Shown piece after piece: positions 8,384-54,734 of a stretch of 64,000 bases of DNA. The stretch spans positions 2,232,001 through 2,296,000 of the forward strand of contig NZ_CP043761.1 in the NCBI RefSeq assembly GCF_008386395.1. Direction: 5' to 3'. Both the position numbers and the translations under genes were made by a program. This stretch comes from Paenibacillus sp. 37. Lineage in GTDB: Bacteria; Bacillota; Bacilli; Paenibacillales; Paenibacillaceae. The notes beneath the pieces were generated by a model. It had not been told where the DNA came from, made no database searches, and was given only the letters and a program-made list of their open reading frames with translations. The stretch's first letter is position 1; every line of letters begins with the position of its first letter.

Positions 8384-9595
8384 TTATACTTCAGGTGTTC
8401 CGTACGTTTCGAACCATTTTTTGATGGTGTCAAAATCATCACTGAAGGACAAGCCCAGCATCAATAATACACGAGCTTGTTGTGGACTCAGGTTGTCACC
8501 TGCAATGATGCCTTTGCCGCCGCCGTATACACTTCCCGAACCCGTCCGAGTGGTGGTGACAAAGATAACACCTTCTTCAATGGCTTTGGTACGAGCTTGT
8601 CCCATAGCTCTGGAGATACCGCCAGCTCCGGTACCGGAAGTCACGATTCCTTTGGCACCGCTGCTCACGAATCCTTCAATGGCTCCGCCGCCAGCTTCTT
8701 GATATGAGATCGCAATTTCTACTTTGGCCAGATCTGCCTTTGTAATTTTACTTAGATCAAATACGGGCTTTGCTGTGCCTTCAGGTTTCAACGCACGTGC
8801 AGGAGCGCGGTAGATTCGAATGTTTTCTTCATCAATATATCCTACAGCACCGAGCATCGGCGTTTCAAACGTATCTGTCCGATAATCATTTGTCTTGGTT
8901 ACACCACGAGCAAGCTGGATTGTGTCATTCAACATGAGTACAGTGCCGAATGAAGTGGTACGACCACTGCCTGCAAGTTTGATTGCGTTGTACAGATTGG
9001 CTTGAGCGTCAGAACCGATGACAGTCCATGGACGCATGGAGCCTGTGATGACGACTGGTTTGTCACTCTGAACCGTCATATCGAGGAAATAAGCGATTTC
9101 TTCCATTGTATCTGTACCCGTGGTAACGACAACACTGTCATACATTGCCAGAGCTTTGTCTACCGTCTGCGACAAGTCATAGAGGTCGGTCATGCTATAG
9201 GAACCTGAACCTGAATTTCCGAACTGGAGTGTGCTAACATCAGCAATCTTCTGTTTATCCGGTAAGGCGTCTACCATCTCTCCAATCGGAAGTGTGCCTG
9301 CCTTGTAATTCTGGAAGCTGGTGGCATCCTCGGATTGTCCGGCAATCGTTCCGCCAGTTCCGATTACCAATACATTAGGTAGTGCAGATTGCTTGGAAGA
9401 GTCTGGTATTGCGGGAATGGAAGTATTGCGAGCTGGGGTAGTGGTTGCTGTCTGAACAGCACCTGTTGTGCCTTTCACCTCTACCGTAGCTGCGTGCGCG
9501 GCGTAGGTTCCAATGGGGGACAACGAGATGGTTAATGCTGTTAAAGCTGCGGTACTCCATACAGCCCAGGGACGAAGATTGGATGTTTTACTCAT
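8384..9595 (-). CDS. ansZ: Secreted type II L-asparaginase, AnsZ-like
   Basis: The 403-residue enzyme hydrolyses asparagine to aspartate and ammonia. It starts with a signal peptide (positive start, hydrophobic segment, A-x-A near residue 38). The two asparaginase signatures are GTGGTIAG with its catalytic Thr (about residue 83) and TTGTDTMEE with the second Thr-Asp pair (about 162-169). The ATG at 9595 has AAGGAGAG before it; a GTG three codons upstream is less likely. B. subtilis ansZ is under nitrogen control through TnrA, and a near-consensus GlnR/TnrA box lies at 9678-9694. Secretion and regulation suggest scavenging of external asparagine for nitrogen. Confidence 0.92.
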   Translation of the reverse strand: MSKTSNLRPWAVWSTAALTALTISLSPIGTYAAHAATVEVKGTTGAVQTATTTPARNTSIPAIPDSSKQSALPNVLVIGTGGTIAGQSEDATSFQNYKAGTLPIGEMVDALPDKQKIADVSTLQFGNSGSGSYSMTDLYDLSQTVDKALAMYDSVVVTTGTDTMEEIAYFLDMTVQSDKPVVITGSMRPWTVIGSDAQANLYNAIKLAGSGRTTSFGTVLMLNDTIQLARGVTKTNDYRTDTFETPMLGAVGYIDEENIRIYRAPARALKPEGTAKPVFDLSKITKADLAKVEIAISYQEAGGGAIEGFVSSGAKGIVTSGTGAGGISRAMGQARTKAIEEGVIFVTTTRTGSGSVYGGGKGIIAGDNLSPQQARVLLMLGLSFSDDFDTIKKWFETYGTPEV

Positions 9596-10081
9596 GAATA
9601 GCACTCTCCTTCAAGTAAGTGTGATGTTAAGTTTGTTAAGAAGAATATGTATACCATTTCAAATTGATTGTATTTCATGTTAAGTAATATGACAAACTTA
9701 GATAATGGTAGAGTAATCGGTTACATTCGTAGATAATGAGAGTAAAATGATTATTTATGAGGAATTACGAAAGAATATTCATTCTGATAGAGATATATAA
9801 GAGCTGGTTTTAGGAGTTTTGAAGAGAAATATGCCTTCGTTGTGTTATTTAATATTACATATTGAGTCTTTTGTCCTGATAAAATGAAGCATTTTAATAA
9901 AAGAATGTCGAATTGGGACGCATATCAGAAGTAGGTAACAGAATAAGAGGATGATAGTAACGCATATTAGGTAATGGGGATCAATTACGGTCTAAAGAGT
10001 GGTTTCGTTATAGAGTTATGTTTATAATAGGGGTGATTAACATATGTAAATAAATATATAATATTGATTGGAGGAGAAACG
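9596..10081. other. AT-rich intergenic region between divergent asparaginase and P450 genes
   Basis: About 485 bp without a convincing ORF. It contains the asparaginase leader and its nitrogen box on the left. On the right, TTTATAATAG (10021-10030) and ATATATAATATT (10053-10064) are possible -10 elements for the P450 gene. No terminator or repeat was seen in the middle. Confidence 0.6.
9649..9694 (-). promoter_or_regulatory. GlnR/TnrA box and -10 region of the asparaginase gene
   Basis: TGTTA-AGTAATA-TGACA at 9678-9694 matches TGTNA-N7-TNACA exactly and differs at one position from the fuller TnrA consensus. A minus-strand TATACA at 9654-9649 would place the box centre about 45 bases upstream of the start point, where nitrogen activators usually bind. 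Paenibacillus is thought to use GlnR in this role. Confidence 0.65.
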
Positions 10082-16413: not shown

Positions 16414-17829
16414 ATGTATCCCCCAAGATCAGATCGAAGTGTAGAGAGAAAAAAAAGAAAGCGCACCCGTGATAGAATCATCTGGACAATTAATCTTTTA
16501 TTGATCATGACAATTGGTCTGGTGGGCATTTTTTATGTGATTAACACACGTCAGCAACAGGCAGACCAGCCGGTGAAGCAGCAAATTGTTGATCAGGATC
16601 AGCCTTCCATTGGAGACGATGCCAAAGGCGGGGATCAAGTAAGTTCTCCAGACTCGGAGGAGTCTGATGAGACTCCGGAAGAAGACGCCGAAGCAACGAA
16701 TGAAGAAACAACAGCAGATGCAGGTGAGCCATCTGGCGTAGCGACCCCAGACACTTCAGGCAATACCAATAGTGAGAAATCAGAATCCGGAACGAAAAAA
16801 CCTGCGGCAACTTCGACTCCGTCCGGCACCAAGGGAAATGCAGGTGCGGATAAGGAAACAGGGGCATCGAAACCTACCAATTCAGCGAAGGATGTCACGA
16901 TTAACTTTGTTGGCGATATTCAATTCTCGGGCAAAGTTGCTGAATTGCTGGATAAGAACGGTTATGACTATCCCTTTGTCAAACTCGGCAGATTATTCAA
17001 GGATGATGATCTTACCATCGGCAACTTGGAGACTCCGATAACCCAAGGTGGTACTGGTGCAGCTGACAAAACGTATGTATACAAATCTTCGCCCAAAGCA
17101 TTGGCGGCAATGGCCTCTGCGGGTTTTGATGCTGTCAATTTGGCTAACAATCATATTCTGGATCAGGGTGTAGAGGGTTTGGTAGATACGTTAACCTATC
17201 TCAAGGAATATGGCATAGCTCACACTGGGGCCGGTATGAACAGGGATGAAGCCTATGCACCAGCGTATCTGGAACGCAAAGGCATGAAGATTGCATTGCT
17301 TGGGTTCTCCCGAGTTGTACCGGAAACGAGTTGGAAGGCTGAGGGCAATCGGGCTGGCGTGGCTGAAGCCTATGATTCCACAGGAGCGGTCAAAGCGATC
17401 CAGGAGGCCCGTAAGAAGGCTGATCTGGTAATCGTGGTTGCTCACTGGGGCGAGGAACGTGTAAGTACTCCGAACAGTGACCAGACCCGATTGGCTCATG
17501 AGTTTGTCGATGCCGGCGCAGATCTGGTCATAGGTGGTCATCCTCATGTGTTGCAAGGGTTGGAGTATTATAAGGGGAAATGGATTGCATACAGTACGGG
17601 GAATTTCATTTTCTCCAGATCAACAACCGAAGAGACATGGAAAACGGCGGTATTTCAGGCACGCTGTAGTGCTGATGCAGCTTGCAGCATGAAAGTCATC
17701 CCTTATGAGGCCGGGCTTGGTCAGGCCATTCCAATGATTGATGAGGCAAACAAACTGCTGCTGCAACAGATGGCAAAGCTCTCGCCAGGCATTCGATATG
17801 ATGGAAATGGAGTCGCTTCGCCAAATTAA
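16414..17829 (+). CDS. CapA family protein (membrane-anchored metallophosphatase-like)
   Basis: The 471-residue protein has a basic cytoplasmic start, one membrane helix at about residues 23-44, a ~100-residue low-complexity linker rich in Glu, Ser, Thr, Asp and Gly, and an extracellular CapA domain. Domain motifs are NFVGDIQFSG, GNLETPIT, NLANNHILDQG, HWGEER and GGHPHVLQG. CapA-type proteins take part in poly-gamma-glutamate capsule assembly or export, but no capB, capC or pgs gene is nearby, so the role here is uncertain. ATG 16414 has GAGGAG before it. The upstream ATG at 16384 sits at the expected transcription start after TATAAT (16375-16380). Confidence 0.87.
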   Translation: MYPPRSDRSVERKKRKRTRDRIIWTINLLLIMTIGLVGIFYVINTRQQQADQPVKQQIVDQDQPSIGDDAKGGDQVSSPDSEESDETPEEDAEATNEETTADAGEPSGVATPDTSGNTNSEKSESGTKKPAATSTPSGTKGNAGADKETGASKPTNSAKDVTINFVGDIQFSGKVAELLDKNGYDYPFVKLGRLFKDDDLTIGNLETPITQGGTGAADKTYVYKSSPKALAAMASAGFDAVNLANNHILDQGVEGLVDTLTYLKEYGIAHTGAGMNRDEAYAPAYLERKGMKIALLGFSRVVPETSWKAEGNRAGVAEAYDSTGAVKAIQEARKKADLVIVVAHWGEERVSTPNSDQTRLAHEFVDAGADLVIGGHPHVLQGLEYYKGKWIAYSTGNFIFSRSTTEETWKTAVFQARCSADAACSMKVIPYEAGLGQAIPMIDEANKLLLQQMAKLSPGIRYDGNGVASPN

Positions 17830-50909: not shown

Positions 50910-50977
50910 TTGTCAACTTTCCTCTCTTCTGCTTATAATGACATTAAGAGTTTCACGTTATGTGAAGAAACTTAACA
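50910..50977 (+). promoter_or_regulatory. Promoter and downstream GlnR box of the amt operon
   Basis: TTGTCA (50910-50915), an 18-base spacer and TATAAT (50934-50939) put the start near 50946. TGTGA-AGAAACT-TAACA (50961-50977) matches TGTNA-N7-TNACA exactly and lies at about +16 to +32, a position expected to block transcription. The rest of the 50645-50995 gap holds only the MerR promoter. Confidence 0.65.
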
Positions 50978-50995: not shown

Positions 50996-52396
50996 ATGAG
51001 AAAGAAATGGTTGGTTTCCGTGTTAGTAATGCTTACTTTGTTCGCTTTTCCGGTCAGCGCATTTGCGGCTGCGGAGGGTCCGACTAACATTGAACTTCAA
51101 AGTGGTTTGAACTCAGCCTTTACGTTTTTGGCTGTTGTACTCGTGTTCTTGATGCAAGGGGGATTTGCTTTACTCGAAGCGGGTTCAACACGAATGAAGA
51201 ATGCAGGACACATTGCGGGTAAGACCATCCTGACACTGGGAATTTCAGTTATTGCCTTCTGGGCTTTGGGTTTTGGTCTTGGTTTCGGTAATGGTAACAG
51301 CTTCTTTGGAACAACAGGATTCTTCCTGAGTGGTGACAAGATGGCTGCTTCCTTCGAATCACTGGCTTTCTCCGATGTTCCACTGACTATTAAATTCGTA
51401 TTTCACCTCGCCTTTGCGGCGGTATCTCTGGCCATTGCCTGCGGTGGTATGGCTGAACGTGCAAAGATGAGCGTATATATTGTTTTCGGTACTCTTTATA
51501 CCATTATCATGTATCCGGTTGTTGCTCACTGGGTATGGGGCGGCGGCTGGTTGGCTGAGCTGGGTATGCAAGACTTTGCAGGATCGACGGTTGTTCACTT
51601 GACTGGTGCGACTGCAGCATTGGTAGCTACCATCTTGTTGAAACCACGTATTGGTAAATATAACAAAGACGGAAAACCTAACATCATTCCAGGTCACAAC
51701 CAAGTGTATTCCGTACTCGGGGTTATTATCCTCTGGATCGGTTGGTTCGGATTCAACCCAGGTAGTACATTATCTGCCATGGGGGATGGGTTCTTCGGTT
51801 ATGTTGCATTAACTACTAACGTAGCTGCTGCAGCTGGTGGTGTTGCTGCGCTGTTGATCTCATGGGCAGTACTTGGTAAGTCTGATATTCCTAGCATGTT
51901 AAACGGTGTGCTTGCGGCACTCGTTGCGATTACAGGAGCATGTGCATTCGTTGAACCTTGGGCAGCGCTGGTTATCGGTGCTCTGGCGGGTATCATCACA
52001 TTCTTCACAGCACAGTACTTCGATCGTAAAGGAATTGACGATCCAATCTACGCTTTCTCCGTGCATGGTATTGCTGGTATGTGGGGTGCGATCTCCACGG
52101 GCTTGTTCGCTACTCCTGAACTTGCCGAGAATGCTGGTGTAGGTCAAGCGGGTCTGTTCTATGGCGGTGGATTCCACCAATTGGGCGTACAGCTTCTCGG
52201 TCTGGCAGGTGCTTTTGCCTTCGTACTGGTCATGTCCTTCATTATTCTGGGTGGAATGAAAGCGATCATGGGCATCCGTGTTACTGAAGAAGAAGAAACA
52301 ATGGGTCTGGATATCAGTGAGCACGGTACTTACGGATACCCTGAACAAATGAAAAATGTAGATTCTAAATCCAATGGTGGTACGTTCAGCTCCTGA
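50996..52396 (+). CDS. amt: Ammonium transporter (Amt/NrgA)
   Basis: The 466-residue channel-like ammonium transporter has a cleavable-type N-terminal signal helix (ends AFAAAEG near residue 26), then 11 membrane helices. Family markers include FLMQGGFALLEAGSTRMKNAGH, WGGGWLAELGMQDFAGSTVVHLTGA with the first pore His, and YAFSVHGIAGMWGAISTGLFA with the second pore His (quoted in parts). ATG 50996 follows GGGAGTGGGG. A GlnR box precedes the gene, in keeping with nitrogen control. Unlike the usual amt-glnK pair, no PII gene follows; a nucleotidyltransferase does. Confidence 0.96.
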   Translation: MRKKWLVSVLVMLTLFAFPVSAFAAAEGPTNIELQSGLNSAFTFLAVVLVFLMQGGFALLEAGSTRMKNAGHIAGKTILTLGISVIAFWALGFGLGFGNGNSFFGTTGFFLSGDKMAASFESLAFSDVPLTIKFVFHLAFAAVSLAIACGGMAERAKMSVYIVFGTLYTIIMYPVVAHWVWGGGWLAELGMQDFAGSTVVHLTGATAALVATILLKPRIGKYNKDGKPNIIPGHNQVYSVLGVIILWIGWFGFNPGSTLSAMGDGFFGYVALTTNVAAAAGGVAALLISWAVLGKSDIPSMLNGVLAALVAITGACAFVEPWAALVIGALAGIITFFTAQYFDRKGIDDPIYAFSVHGIAGMWGAISTGLFATPELAENAGVGQAGLFYGGGFHQLGVQLLGLAGAFAFVLVMSFIILGGMKAIMGIRVTEEEETMGLDISEHGTYGYPEQMKNVDSKSNGGTFSS

Positions 52397-52434
52397 GGTG
52401 AATGATGCTGAATCATGCTTCAAGGAGGCTGGAC

Positions 52435-53523
52435 ATGATGGAACCCATCTCGTATACAAACTATTCCTGGTCTTATCAGGGAATCGATGGTGCGGTGTCT
52501 TCTCAAGAACTGCGCCAGGAACGTGTAATATTACAGAACGAGCTCCAGGAATTGTTGTCCGCTTCCTTGTCGCCGATCGAGTGGTACCAAACGGTAAATG
52601 AACTGCATGACCGGATTGCACGGAAAGCAGTAGAGTTATGCATTCAGGGGATGGTTGAGGAAGGCTTCGGCCAACCTCCCGTCCCCTATGCCTTTATCGT
52701 ATTTGGCAGTTCCGGCAGGGAAGAAGCAACGTTATGGAGTGATCAGGATAATGGCATGATCATTAGCGATACTCCGCATGAAGGTAAAGAGGAATATTTT
52801 GCTCAGCTCGGACAGCGAATGACGGATATGTTAGAAGAGCTTGGTTACGCCAAGTGCGAAGGTAAAGTCATGTGCTCTGAGCCACTCTGGAGAAAAACAC
52901 TGGCCTCATGGAAACAACAATTAGCAGATTGGAGCTCGGATCTGAATTGGGAGCCTGTTCGTAATCTGATTATTGCTTCAGACATGCGTTTTGTTGCAGG
53001 TGAGCAAAGTCTGGCGGAGGAATGGATCACGAGTTTTTATGAAAAGTTCAGACTGATTCCTGAACTTTCGGATGCAGTTCTTCGCAATACGGTTAAACAT
53101 AAAGCTACATTAAATGTACTTGGACGTGTGGTCACAGAACGATTTGGTGAACATGCAGGCGGATTTGATGTTAAGTATGGTTTGTACATTCCGCTGGTGA
53201 ACAGTGCTCGTTATTTGGCTTTGCAACATGGGATCAAGGAGTCATCTACGTTAAAAAGAATGGAGAGACTGACTTCGCTTGAAGCTGTTCCATTTACATT
53301 ACTGGATGCATGTCAGCGGGCCTTCTTGGCTGCTTTGAAATTTCGCCGAAGTACACCGGTTGTCATACAAGGGGATTTGCAACATAGCAGTGGGTTCCTG
53401 GATGAGAAACAGATGAAACAAAAGCAAATTCATTATGAGCTCAGGGATACGCTCGGGTTGGTACGACGAGTGCATCGTGCTTTGCAAAGACAGTTGCGTT
53501 TTGCAGAAAGGAGACGTCCATGA
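52435..53523 (+). CDS. DUF294-type nucleotidyltransferase (GlnD/GlnE-like)
   Basis: The 362-residue soluble protein contains a Pol-beta-type nucleotidyltransferase core: GSSGREE (residues 91-97) and S-D-Q-D (102-105), the GS-x-x-R-x-E...SD-x-D metal motif seen in GlnD and GlnE. A DUF294 C-terminal substrate-binding helical domain follows (about 200-355). No CBS or cyclic-nucleotide domain is fused, unlike many relatives. AAGGAGGCTGGAC precedes ATG 52435; ATG 52402 abuts another site and is less likely. It lies 38 bp after amt and overlaps the exonuclease by 4 bp (ATGA). It could nucleotidylate a protein or small molecule; the target is unknown. Confidence 0.85.
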   Translation: MMEPISYTNYSWSYQGIDGAVSSQELRQERVILQNELQELLSASLSPIEWYQTVNELHDRIARKAVELCIQGMVEEGFGQPPVPYAFIVFGSSGREEATLWSDQDNGMIISDTPHEGKEEYFAQLGQRMTDMLEELGYAKCEGKVMCSEPLWRKTLASWKQQLADWSSDLNWEPVRNLIIASDMRFVAGEQSLAEEWITSFYEKFRLIPELSDAVLRNTVKHKATLNVLGRVVTERFGEHAGGFDVKYGLYIPLVNSARYLALQHGIKESSTLKRMERLTSLEAVPFTLLDACQRAFLAALKFRRSTPVVIQGDLQHSSGFLDEKQMKQKQIHYELRDTLGLVRRVHRALQRQLRFAERRRP

Positions 53524-54257
53524 GAGAGCCGGCAAGGGGCAATACAGGATTCTGGAATTCGCTGCGTCAGGGAGGGGTTCCTTCCGCCATCGCTTCCATT
53601 ATGGGAGCCCCTACGGCGCAACACATGGCGTTTATCCGTTCGATGATGAGAGATCAGCGCAGACCTGAGGTTCTGCATACACCTCTAAATGAGCTGGACG
53701 CAGTTGTATTTGATCTGGAAACGACGGGATTTTCGCCCCAGCATGGGGATGAGATTATCTCATTTGGTGCGGTCCGTATACATGGTGGTGTGGTACTGGA
53801 AGGGGAGCAGTTCTATACGGTGGTGCAGTCCAAGACTGCGGTTCCGGAACATATTACTGAACTTACAGGTATTACGCAGGAGATGACGCTGGACGCACCG
53901 ACTTTGCTGGAAGGGCTGCATGATTTCATGTCTTTTGTAGGTGGAAATGTTCTGATTGCACACGCAAGTGCGCATGACCGAGCTTTTCTGAATGCCGCTC
54001 TGTGGCGGACTTCAAAGGTAAGGTTGACACATCGTTTAATCGATACGATGATGTTGGCCCGCTGGCTTGAACCAAGCAGGCCGGGGTATGGTCTGGATGA
54101 ATTGCTGGAATCCAGAGGGATTCCGATCTATGGGCGGCACCATGCACTGGAAGATTCAAAAATGACTGCACAGTTATGGTCCTGCTACTTGGAGGACATG
54201 ACTCGTAAAAATGTGGAGACCTTGGGTGATCTGTATACCCAGCTAAGTCACGCATAA
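53520..54257 (+). CDS. DEDDh 3'-5' exonuclease, DnaQ/PolC-epsilon-like
   Basis: The 245-residue protein has all DEDDh residues: Asp65 and Glu67 (FDLETTGF), Asp153 (HASAHDRAFL), His208 and Asp212 (RHHALEDSKM). The first ~55 residues are a poorly conserved extension. Such stand-alone exonucleases trim DNA, RNA or small nucleotide substrates. The start overlaps the nucleotidyltransferase stop as ATGA, indicating coupling. In proteobacteria, as I recall, a DUF294 protein and a similar exonuclease also neighbour each other beside an acetate transporter, so the pair is likely functional. It ends 15 bp inside the convergent JAMM gene. Confidence 0.88.
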   Translation: MREPARGNTGFWNSLRQGGVPSAIASIMGAPTAQHMAFIRSMMRDQRRPEVLHTPLNELDAVVFDLETTGFSPQHGDEIISFGAVRIHGGVVLEGEQFYTVVQSKTAVPEHITELTGITQEMTLDAPTLLEGLHDFMSFVGGNVLIAHASAHDRAFLNAALWRTSKVRLTHRLIDTMMLARWLEPSRPGYGLDELLESRGIPIYGRHHALEDSKMTAQLWSCYLEDMTRKNVETLGDLYTQLSHA

Positions 54258-54734
54258 CGGAACGGGAAACAGATTGTATGAAGGCACAACACGTTGTGCC
54301 TGATCCTGCGATTCCTTCGAGGATTCAATCAGATAACCGTTCAGATGCATATGAGATCGCAACCCGCTTGTTAGGTCGGGTGAGCCGATGAGGTACATCT
54401 GAAGTAAACCGGCGAAGGCCGGAAGAGCTTGCATGTCCTCTACGGATGGAACAGGCCTTGTCTGCGGATGAGAATGGAAGATACCAATGAGCTTGGGCTC
54501 GGAGAATACGCACCGAATCCATTCGGCATCGTCCAGAGTAAAATGGTGCAGCGGGTCAGGTGCTACGTTACGAATGGGCTGAAACCGACTGATTCGTATA
54601 CCGCCCGCTGCGGTTTCACCCAGCATAACCCCGCAGGCTTCTTGCGGCAGCGAAAGGAACATGTGCTTTGACATCTCTTGTTCTACGGAAGAAGGGATGT
54701 AGATGGCGTTTTGCTGCCCGTGAAGTGCTGCCAT
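54243..54734 (-). CDS. M67 (JAMM/MPN+) metallopeptidase
   Basis: The 163-residue protein has a complete JAMM zinc site: Glu32 (PQEACGVMLGE), His87-x-His89-Pro (GIFHSHPQTRP), Ser97 and Asp100 (VPSVED). Bacterial members cut isopeptide or C-terminal tails, often from ubiquitin-like sulfur carriers (ThiS/MoaD type) or siderophore/cysteine pathway proteins. No ThiS-like gene is adjacent. GGGGTGAATACAA precedes the ATG. It is convergent with the exonuclease, whose 3' end overlaps it by 15 bp. Confidence 0.88.
   Translation of the reverse strand: MAALHGQQNAIYIPSSVEQEMSKHMFLSLPQEACGVMLGETAAGGIRISRFQPIRNVAPDPLHHFTLDDAEWIRCVFSEPKLIGIFHSHPQTRPVPSVEDMQALPAFAGLLQMYLIGSPDLTSGLRSHMHLNGYLIESSKESQDQAQRVVPSYNLFPVPLCVT

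Follow-up and report, generated by a model that had tools for sequence, protein, structure and literature searches.

Ammonium uptake in Paenibacillus sp. 37 may be governed by a covalent switch that works without a PII protein. In a stretch of 64,000 nucleotides from this strain (contig NZ_CP043761.1, positions 2,232,001 to 2,296,000 of the forward strand; hereafter the window), the gene of an ammonium transporter (Amt) is followed by the genes of a short nucleotidyltransferase (NTase) of the DUF294 family and of a DEDDh-type exonuclease. It is proposed that the NTase as writer and the exonuclease as eraser bring about reversible AMPylation of the Amt C-terminal tail, a full mechanism to which we assign a probability of roughly 0.4 on the basis of sequence comparisons and a predicted structure; a looser role of the pair in nitrogen assimilation, exerted in whatever manner through Amt, is likely.

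The operon itself was already noted as amtB-DUF294-dnaQ in Bacilli, namely in Anoxybacillus, Geobacillus, Paenibacillus and Brevibacillus (PMC3412718, Table 1 footnote d), where the accessible part of the paper assigns it no function and does not connect it with the tail of Amt. In the literature searched, which excluded most subscription papers and preprints, we found no proposal that the pair acts on Amt, and nothing on the closing of Amt channels in PII-less Paenibacillaceae. New here are the extent of the Amt linkage, the GlnE-like model of the NTase, the association with a tail motif, YPE, and the glutamine synthetase (GS) genes lying between Amt and the pair in one family.

Linkage of the enzyme pair to Amt and its C-terminal tail

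Genomes were sampled evenly for the survey and loci were hand-picked from the match lists, with locus genes being called by our own open-reading-frame finder and by local hidden Markov models (HMMs) built from few sequences; some loci end at contig ends. Among 148 sampled genomes of Paenibacillaceae, Amt was present in 147 and DUF294_C in 139. The two genes adjoin each other, i.e., lie on the same strand with starts within 4 kb, in 131 of the 139 DUF294-bearing genomes, as judged by coordinates (87), direct reading of the locus (36) or the position of the Amt tail motif (8), which bears out the conserved linkage anticipated by an initial annotation of this DNA. They are non-adjacent in five genomes (G008, G026, G040, G079, G089); these tallies cover all of the 139 but G021, G139 and G147. 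In one of the five, G026, the DUF294 open frame is joined without a frame shift to a stretch resembling the tail of a lost amt (L055:5251), and a full-length Amt is encoded elsewhere.

The nine DUF294-less genomes contain no exonuclease match above 32% identity to that of the pair, compared with 45-46% in G079 and G089; therefore, the pair seems to be lost as a unit. A diverged exonuclease hidden in these pair-less genomes (g6, g18 and g12) was considered and rejected, the best matches being weak or situated in frames of PolC or DinG size (~950-1520 aa). Beyond the family, DUF294_C was found in 111 of 250 Bacilli genomes, 98 of them with the short form (an open frame below 500 aa, partial frames included) and 13 with the long form only. 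Of 28 short-form loci across families (L167-L194), 26 contain Amt (a fragment in L170), 4 GS, 27 either of the two and 27 the exonuclease. Two of these loci feature an additional gene between Amt and DUF294, which encodes an ANTAR-domain protein (L194:2782-3429) or a member of the MgtC family (L180:5037-5735). No relative was found on viral contigs.

When AmtB is bound to GlnK, its C-terminal tail becomes ordered, as stated in the accessible text of PMC10433425. The tails of pair-linked Amts read ..GLDxSEHGxxGYPE.. or closely similar; YPE is present in 55 of 55 pair-linked but in 0 of 29 PII-linked Amts. Five Amts first classed as unlinked all carry the motif; two of them (L176, L188) are pair-linked with GS in between, and three (L114-L116) stem from pair-less genomes. 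The source genome has one DUF294_C match and two Amt genes, the second of which is an orphan lacking YPE in its tail. Among the next 20 Amt loci, this orphan included, YPE occurs in L321-L325, all five from genomes with the pair elsewhere, and within the other 15 it occurs in L315 (genome with the pair) and L328 (genome without it) and is absent from 13.

A scan of the 250 Bacilli genomes with a DNA pattern for EHGxxGYPE, whose reversed control gave 0 matches, was positive in 92, and 76 of 97 motif copies have a DUF294 match at a distance of up to 3.5 kb. Motif and short NTase occur together in 83 genomes, the motif alone in 9, the NTase alone in 15 and neither in 143 (odds ratio 88, p 1.2e-39); counted by hand over 48 families, the corresponding numbers are 25, 1, 2 and 20 (p 2.7e-10), with Fisher p-values that ignore relatedness. 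Thirteen of the 15 NTase-only genomes belong to a single family (f112), in which the Amt of the pair locus ends in ..SAYPE.. or ..AAYPE.. (L176, L188 and 11 of 11 new loci, L329-L339); these variants were sought only at DUF294 loci or in known Amts, and pair-less genomes that carry them are possible. In the other two, the locus ends at a contig edge (G611) or is available only in pieces (G558).

In a phylogeny of the Amt core from which the tails were removed, comprising 89 rows after random thinning of the Paenibacillaceae rows (109 in all), YPE changes twice, both times with the pair: partner and tail switch together in two of two cases. The second YPE group (L176, L186, L188) is placed among PII-type Amts, and a topology that unites all YPE Amts in one clade is rejected (log-likelihood difference 158, p-AU 3.9e-65).

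The two enzymes and their operon behind a GlnR-type box

As initially annotated, amt, the DUF294 gene and the exonuclease gene lie behind a perfect GlnR-type box (Table 1), except that ATG 52435 is a more probable start of the NTase than 52402, because a Shine-Dalgarno sequence, AAGGAGG, is visible by eye at 52422-52428 and the nearest homologues measure 362 aa. An ATGA overlap (53520-53523) couples the NTase stop to the start of the exonuclease.

Table 1. Coordinates of the operon and its features within the window
Feature	Position	Strand	Evidence
Ammonium transporter Amt, 466 aa	50996..52396	+	PF00909 2.1e-111; TIGR00836
Short DUF294 nucleotidyltransferase, 362 aa	52435..53523	+	PF03445 3.5e-40, PF10335 1.3e-19
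DEDDh exonuclease, 245 aa	53520..54257	+	PF00929 4.8e-32; NCBIfam NF005836 311 bits (cut-off 261)
Putative sigma-A-like promoter TTGTCA-N18-TATAAT	50910..50939	+	by eye
GlnR/TnrA-type box TGTGAAGAAACTTAACA	50961..50977	+	perfect pattern match
Amt C-tail motif G-Y448-P-E (codons), tail signature of pair-linked Amts	52334..52345	+	
NTase active-site motif GSSGREEATLWSDQD, residues 91-105	52705..52749	+	

With both Pfam domains above cut-off, the NTase is a member of the DUF294 nucleotidyltransferase family; it is 98% identical to a DUF294 protein of P. xylanexedens, a species to which the strain is close. It matches no NCBIfam model, and a sequence search of solved structures with an alignment of the NTase yields no match up to E 10. 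No CBS or cNMP domain was found in it, and it hence represents a sensor-less form, whereas the Pseudomonas DUF294 protein carries both cNMP and CBS domains. The catalytic residues are intact (GSxGRxE...DQD) and correspond to GSxxRxE..DxD, which we take to be the catalytic motif of GlnE. The predicted structure comprises a GlnE-type NTase fold with a helical domain and matches, over the length of the NTase, both halves of GlnE as well as DrrA, that is, enzymes adding AMP to or removing it from proteins; the GlnE-like character proposed in the initial annotation is thus supported by the model. GlnE (PDB 1v4a, 3k7d), the closest fold, is composed of two NTase units, one adenylyl-adding and one adenylyl-removing, while the window protein is a single DUF294 plus DUF294_C unit, paired with a DEDDh exonuclease and linked to Amt. 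In the partially accessible literature, DUF294_C is grouped with GlnD/GlnE (PMC3710099) and nucleotidylation is the predicted role of the long form, Pflu5625 (PMC5715377). The exonuclease likewise retains its DEDDh residues in three motifs (D65, E67, D153, H207, D212), so that both active sites expected from the initial annotation are present.

Two activities of this kind could instead operate at the RNA level, the NTase extending and the exonuclease trimming a transcript, for instance amt mRNA or a tRNA, at its 3' ends. Both activities are common in RNA metabolism, and mRNA decay has been suggested as the role of the exonuclease-type protein PP_0353 by authors working on P. putida (PMC9927547, in part). 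RNA-tailing NTases, however, rank far below GlnE in the structure comparison (TUTase E 0.07, TM 0.15), and co-variation with a protein tail motif would be left unexplained, which makes this explanation very improbable. Alternatively, the NTase might make a small nucleotide signal, either an oligonucleotide or a metabolite adduct, that gates the transporter or pathway and is degraded by the exonuclease, a possibility which we regard as unlikely.

The GlnR-type box TGTGAAGAAACTTAACA is located just 3' of the putative -10 element, in a repressor-like position. It conforms to the pattern TGTNAN7TNACA, taken as the promoter mark of the GlnR regulon, which makes amt a candidate member. Four matches to the pattern occur in the window against 1.54 expected, a number reached in 5 of 100 shuffles, and the window count by itself is a weak signal; across loci, 46 of 55 pair-linked Amts have a GlnR-type box close to their start, compared with 0.61 expected from base shuffles. 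In P. polymyxa WLY78, GlnR binds the amtB promoter at the site ATGTAAAGAAACTTAACAT, as found by chromatin immunoprecipitation with quantitative PCR under nitrogen excess and by electrophoretic mobility shift assay, and the gene co-transcribed with amtB is named glnK2 (PMC9948412, Table 1, accessible part). We suspect that this glnK2 is probably the DUF294 gene rather than a PII gene, because the DUF294 operon occurs in P. polymyxa E681, for which the part of PMC3412718 at hand leaves the glnK entry blank.

Elsewhere in the window, two perfect GlnR-type boxes (9678-9694 and 9843-9859) are situated upstream of a gene for an L-asparaginase-like secreted protein (8384-9604, minus strand), named by eye from its sequence, and a further box lies at 17133-17149; ansZ is among the GlnR targets listed for P. 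polymyxa in the accessible part of PMC9948412. Convergent to the operon, a Prok-JAB/desampylase-like gene (54243-54734, minus strand) lies 3' of the exonuclease gene; among 37 Paenibacillaceae loci (L042-L061, L097-L113), 31 have a relative at this position.

PII proteins, glutamine synthetase and the long-form relatives

Like an amtB-glnK operon, the window's operon has a gene directly 3' of amt under a GlnR-type box, but it encodes a catalytic pair instead of a PII protein, and its Amt bears the YPE tail that PII-linked Amts lack. The initial annotation described the pair as standing in place of PII. For the strain itself this holds: a search with PF00543, which gave matches in 13 of 14 control genomes, detected no PII gene in the source assembly (7.6 Mb, 2 contigs, rated 100% complete). 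This result also dismisses a PII protein encoded elsewhere in the genome, one of the targets initially considered. The Amt tail, another of these, is the best fit owing to the YPE association.

As a general rule, by contrast, the replacement fails. PII was not found in 127 of the 148 Paenibacillaceae genomes, yet all 21 PII-bearing genomes are also DUF294-positive, and for at least 15 of the 26 PII genes in them, an Amt other than the DUF294-linked one is found no more than 4 kb away, among the Amt matches listed. In the 250 Bacilli genomes, 62 have PII (strong matches, hand-chosen); both PII and DUF294 occur in 30, DUF294 alone in 81, PII alone in 32 and neither in 107 (odds ratio 1.24, p 0.56), so that a genome-wide exclusion was rejected and the two are independent. 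The YPE motif, on the other hand, is rarer in PII genomes (14 with both, 78 with the motif only, 48 with PII only, 110 with neither; odds ratio 0.41, p 0.009). In the accessible part of PMC3412718, glnK is also blank for Brevibacillus brevis, while other species under the footnote, Geobacillus sp. Y412MC61 and Paenibacillus sp. JDR-2, are given with two or more amtB genes plus a glnK.

A further candidate substrate is GS, which would give the pair a role similar to that of GlnE, with Amt as a co-regulated neighbour. The closest fold is that of GlnE, whose substrate is GS; moreover, 13 loci of family f112 (L176, L188, L329-L339) have a GS gene situated between Amt and the pair, and in L182 GS follows the pair in the order DUF294-Exo-GS. 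In L186 (family f139), two DUF294-exonuclease pairs flank one GS gene, one pair being located beside the single Amt. GS was identified by Pfam in L176, L186 and L188 and by local HMM at the other loci. Alignment to solved GS structures, however, revealed that the tyrosine of the NIY motif, a mark of the region that is adenylylated in other GS, is lost in 14 of 14 enzymes (L176, L186, L188, L329-L339) and replaced by F in L182, whereas unlinked GS in L336 and L347 retain it. Because of this loss, GS is ruled out as a target at this tyrosine and its modification at pair loci is unlikely, as far as the sequences tell; these GS genes form part of the context of the module and may encode divergent paralogues or sensors. 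Since GS is furthermore present at just 4 of the 28 short-form loci and the Amt tail motif would remain unexplained, it is quite unlikely that a nitrogen-assimilation protein other than Amt, above all GS, is the substrate.

The long, sensor-bearing relatives reside in a different context. Of 32 long-form loci in the same phylum (L147-L166, L195-L206), 25 contain the exonuclease, 8 an SSS symporter and 3 an Acs-like gene; in L151 and L160 the long DUF294-exonuclease pair lies directly 3' of an aconitase gene. The 80 gammaproteobacterial loci inspected, the best 80 of 138 and mostly from Vibrio and Pseudomonas, comprise the exonuclease in 79 and an Acs gene nearby in 62, 59 of which also feature a hybrid histidine kinase gene (Acs and kinase calls are Pfam-confirmed in L225 only). 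An SSS transporter was observed at 18 of these 80 loci, 17 times inside the counted stretch and in L210 just outside, which, together with L092, L095 and L096, supports the occurrence of such pairs beside acetate transporters in proteobacteria, as stated in the initial annotation. Its wider description of the pair as transporter-linked suits the short form with Amt but is too broad for the long form, which stands by SSS genes at only a quarter of the 32 loci and by acs or aconitase genes at others. The pair accompanies the uptake and first use of ammonium or of acetate and pyruvate, not transporters only.

The PP_0354/PP_0353 type, with CBS/cNMP-DUF294 and exonuclease by ActP/YjcH, DUF4212-SSS or acs, shares two catalytic proteins with the window, in the same order (DUF294, then exonuclease, in L092 and in Pseudomonas and Vibrio loci), but differs by its sensor domains and its setting in carboxylate use. 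In P. putida on 20 mM pyruvate, growth is slowed upon deletion of pp_0353 or actP-I but not of pp_0354, while on 20 mM acetate all three genes are dispensable (PMC9927547, accessible part). By analogy, a writer/eraser mechanism would predict this asymmetry, in which loss of the eraser resembles loss of the transporter and loss of the writer is harmless.

A putative covalent switch of ammonium uptake

Control of Amt is taught as blockage of the pore by GlnK/PII. In the proposed module of GlnR-controlled nitrogen uptake, covalent modification by the pair would replace what PII/GlnK achieves through AmtB binding. The DUF294 protein would act as a soluble protein-tyrosine adenylyltransferase (or other nucleotidyltransferase) that recognizes the cytoplasmic C-tail of Amt and modifies it, most likely at Tyr448 of GYPE, so that the channel is shut under nitrogen excess. 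The exonuclease, in turn, would function as a phosphodiesterase that strips the nucleotide and reopens the channel. The nitrogen signal, glutamine or the energy state, would probably be read by the helical domain of the NTase or via GS, which is a guess. A broader version, in which a free-standing GlnE-type enzyme adenylylates the YPE tyrosine, a DnaQ-type exonuclease is the de-adenylylase, and the same pair equipped with cNMP/CBS sensors governs acetate/pyruvate uptake and activation in proteobacteria, is doubtful.

Several points weigh against the proposed switch. Just two independent partner switches are available (sign test p 0.5), which leaves the link between tail and partner without phylogenetic significance. 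YPE can persist without the pair, as in the 9 of 250 Bacilli genomes that are motif-positive without a short DUF294 match, seven of which were read and have neither the pair nor PII beside that Amt; likewise, it is kept in G065, G122, G130 and G138, the four read of the nine pair-less Paenibacillaceae. Many PII-linked tails also have a tyrosine at this position (AY[NES..]), so that P-E and not the tyrosine is the distinctive part. Exonucleases from short-form Bacilli loci carry E for D in motif II in 13 of 27 cases, and we know of no DEDDh enzyme that acts as a protein de-AMPylase. The GS neighbours could indicate another target, and mRNA decay has been put forward, as a speculation, in the P. 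putida work. A tail signature was also sought on SSS transporters linked to the long form and rejected, the tail being conserved in the unlinked ActP of E. coli, a control without DUF294_C: at the DNA level this gene shares 78% identity with a linked ActP as far as query base 1633 of 1656, and the final 23 bases are unaligned.

The small number of partner switches and the persistence of YPE, along with the DUF294-exonuclease genes that lack an adjacent amt in five Paenibacillaceae genomes, would equally suit two housekeeping genes merely co-expressed with amt and not acting on Amt, with YPE as the mark of a clade. Such hitch-hiking is nonetheless distinctly unlikely, considering that the motif accompanies the short NTase in 25 of 48 sampled Bacilli families and in two separate Amt clades, and that the nine pair-less Paenibacillaceae genomes are devoid of a close exonuclease match as well.

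Taken together, an enzyme pair adjacent to Amt and a matching tail motif suggest a different switch of ammonium uptake in PII-less soil bacteria. For this candidate, both the residue to be modified (Tyr448 in GYPE) and the expected epistasis are predicted precisely. If true, the reversible AMPylation of Amt would constitute a new target for protein AMPylation and a new activity for DEDDh exonucleases, and it would suggest how the DUF294 family in acetate/pyruvate operons may be interpreted.

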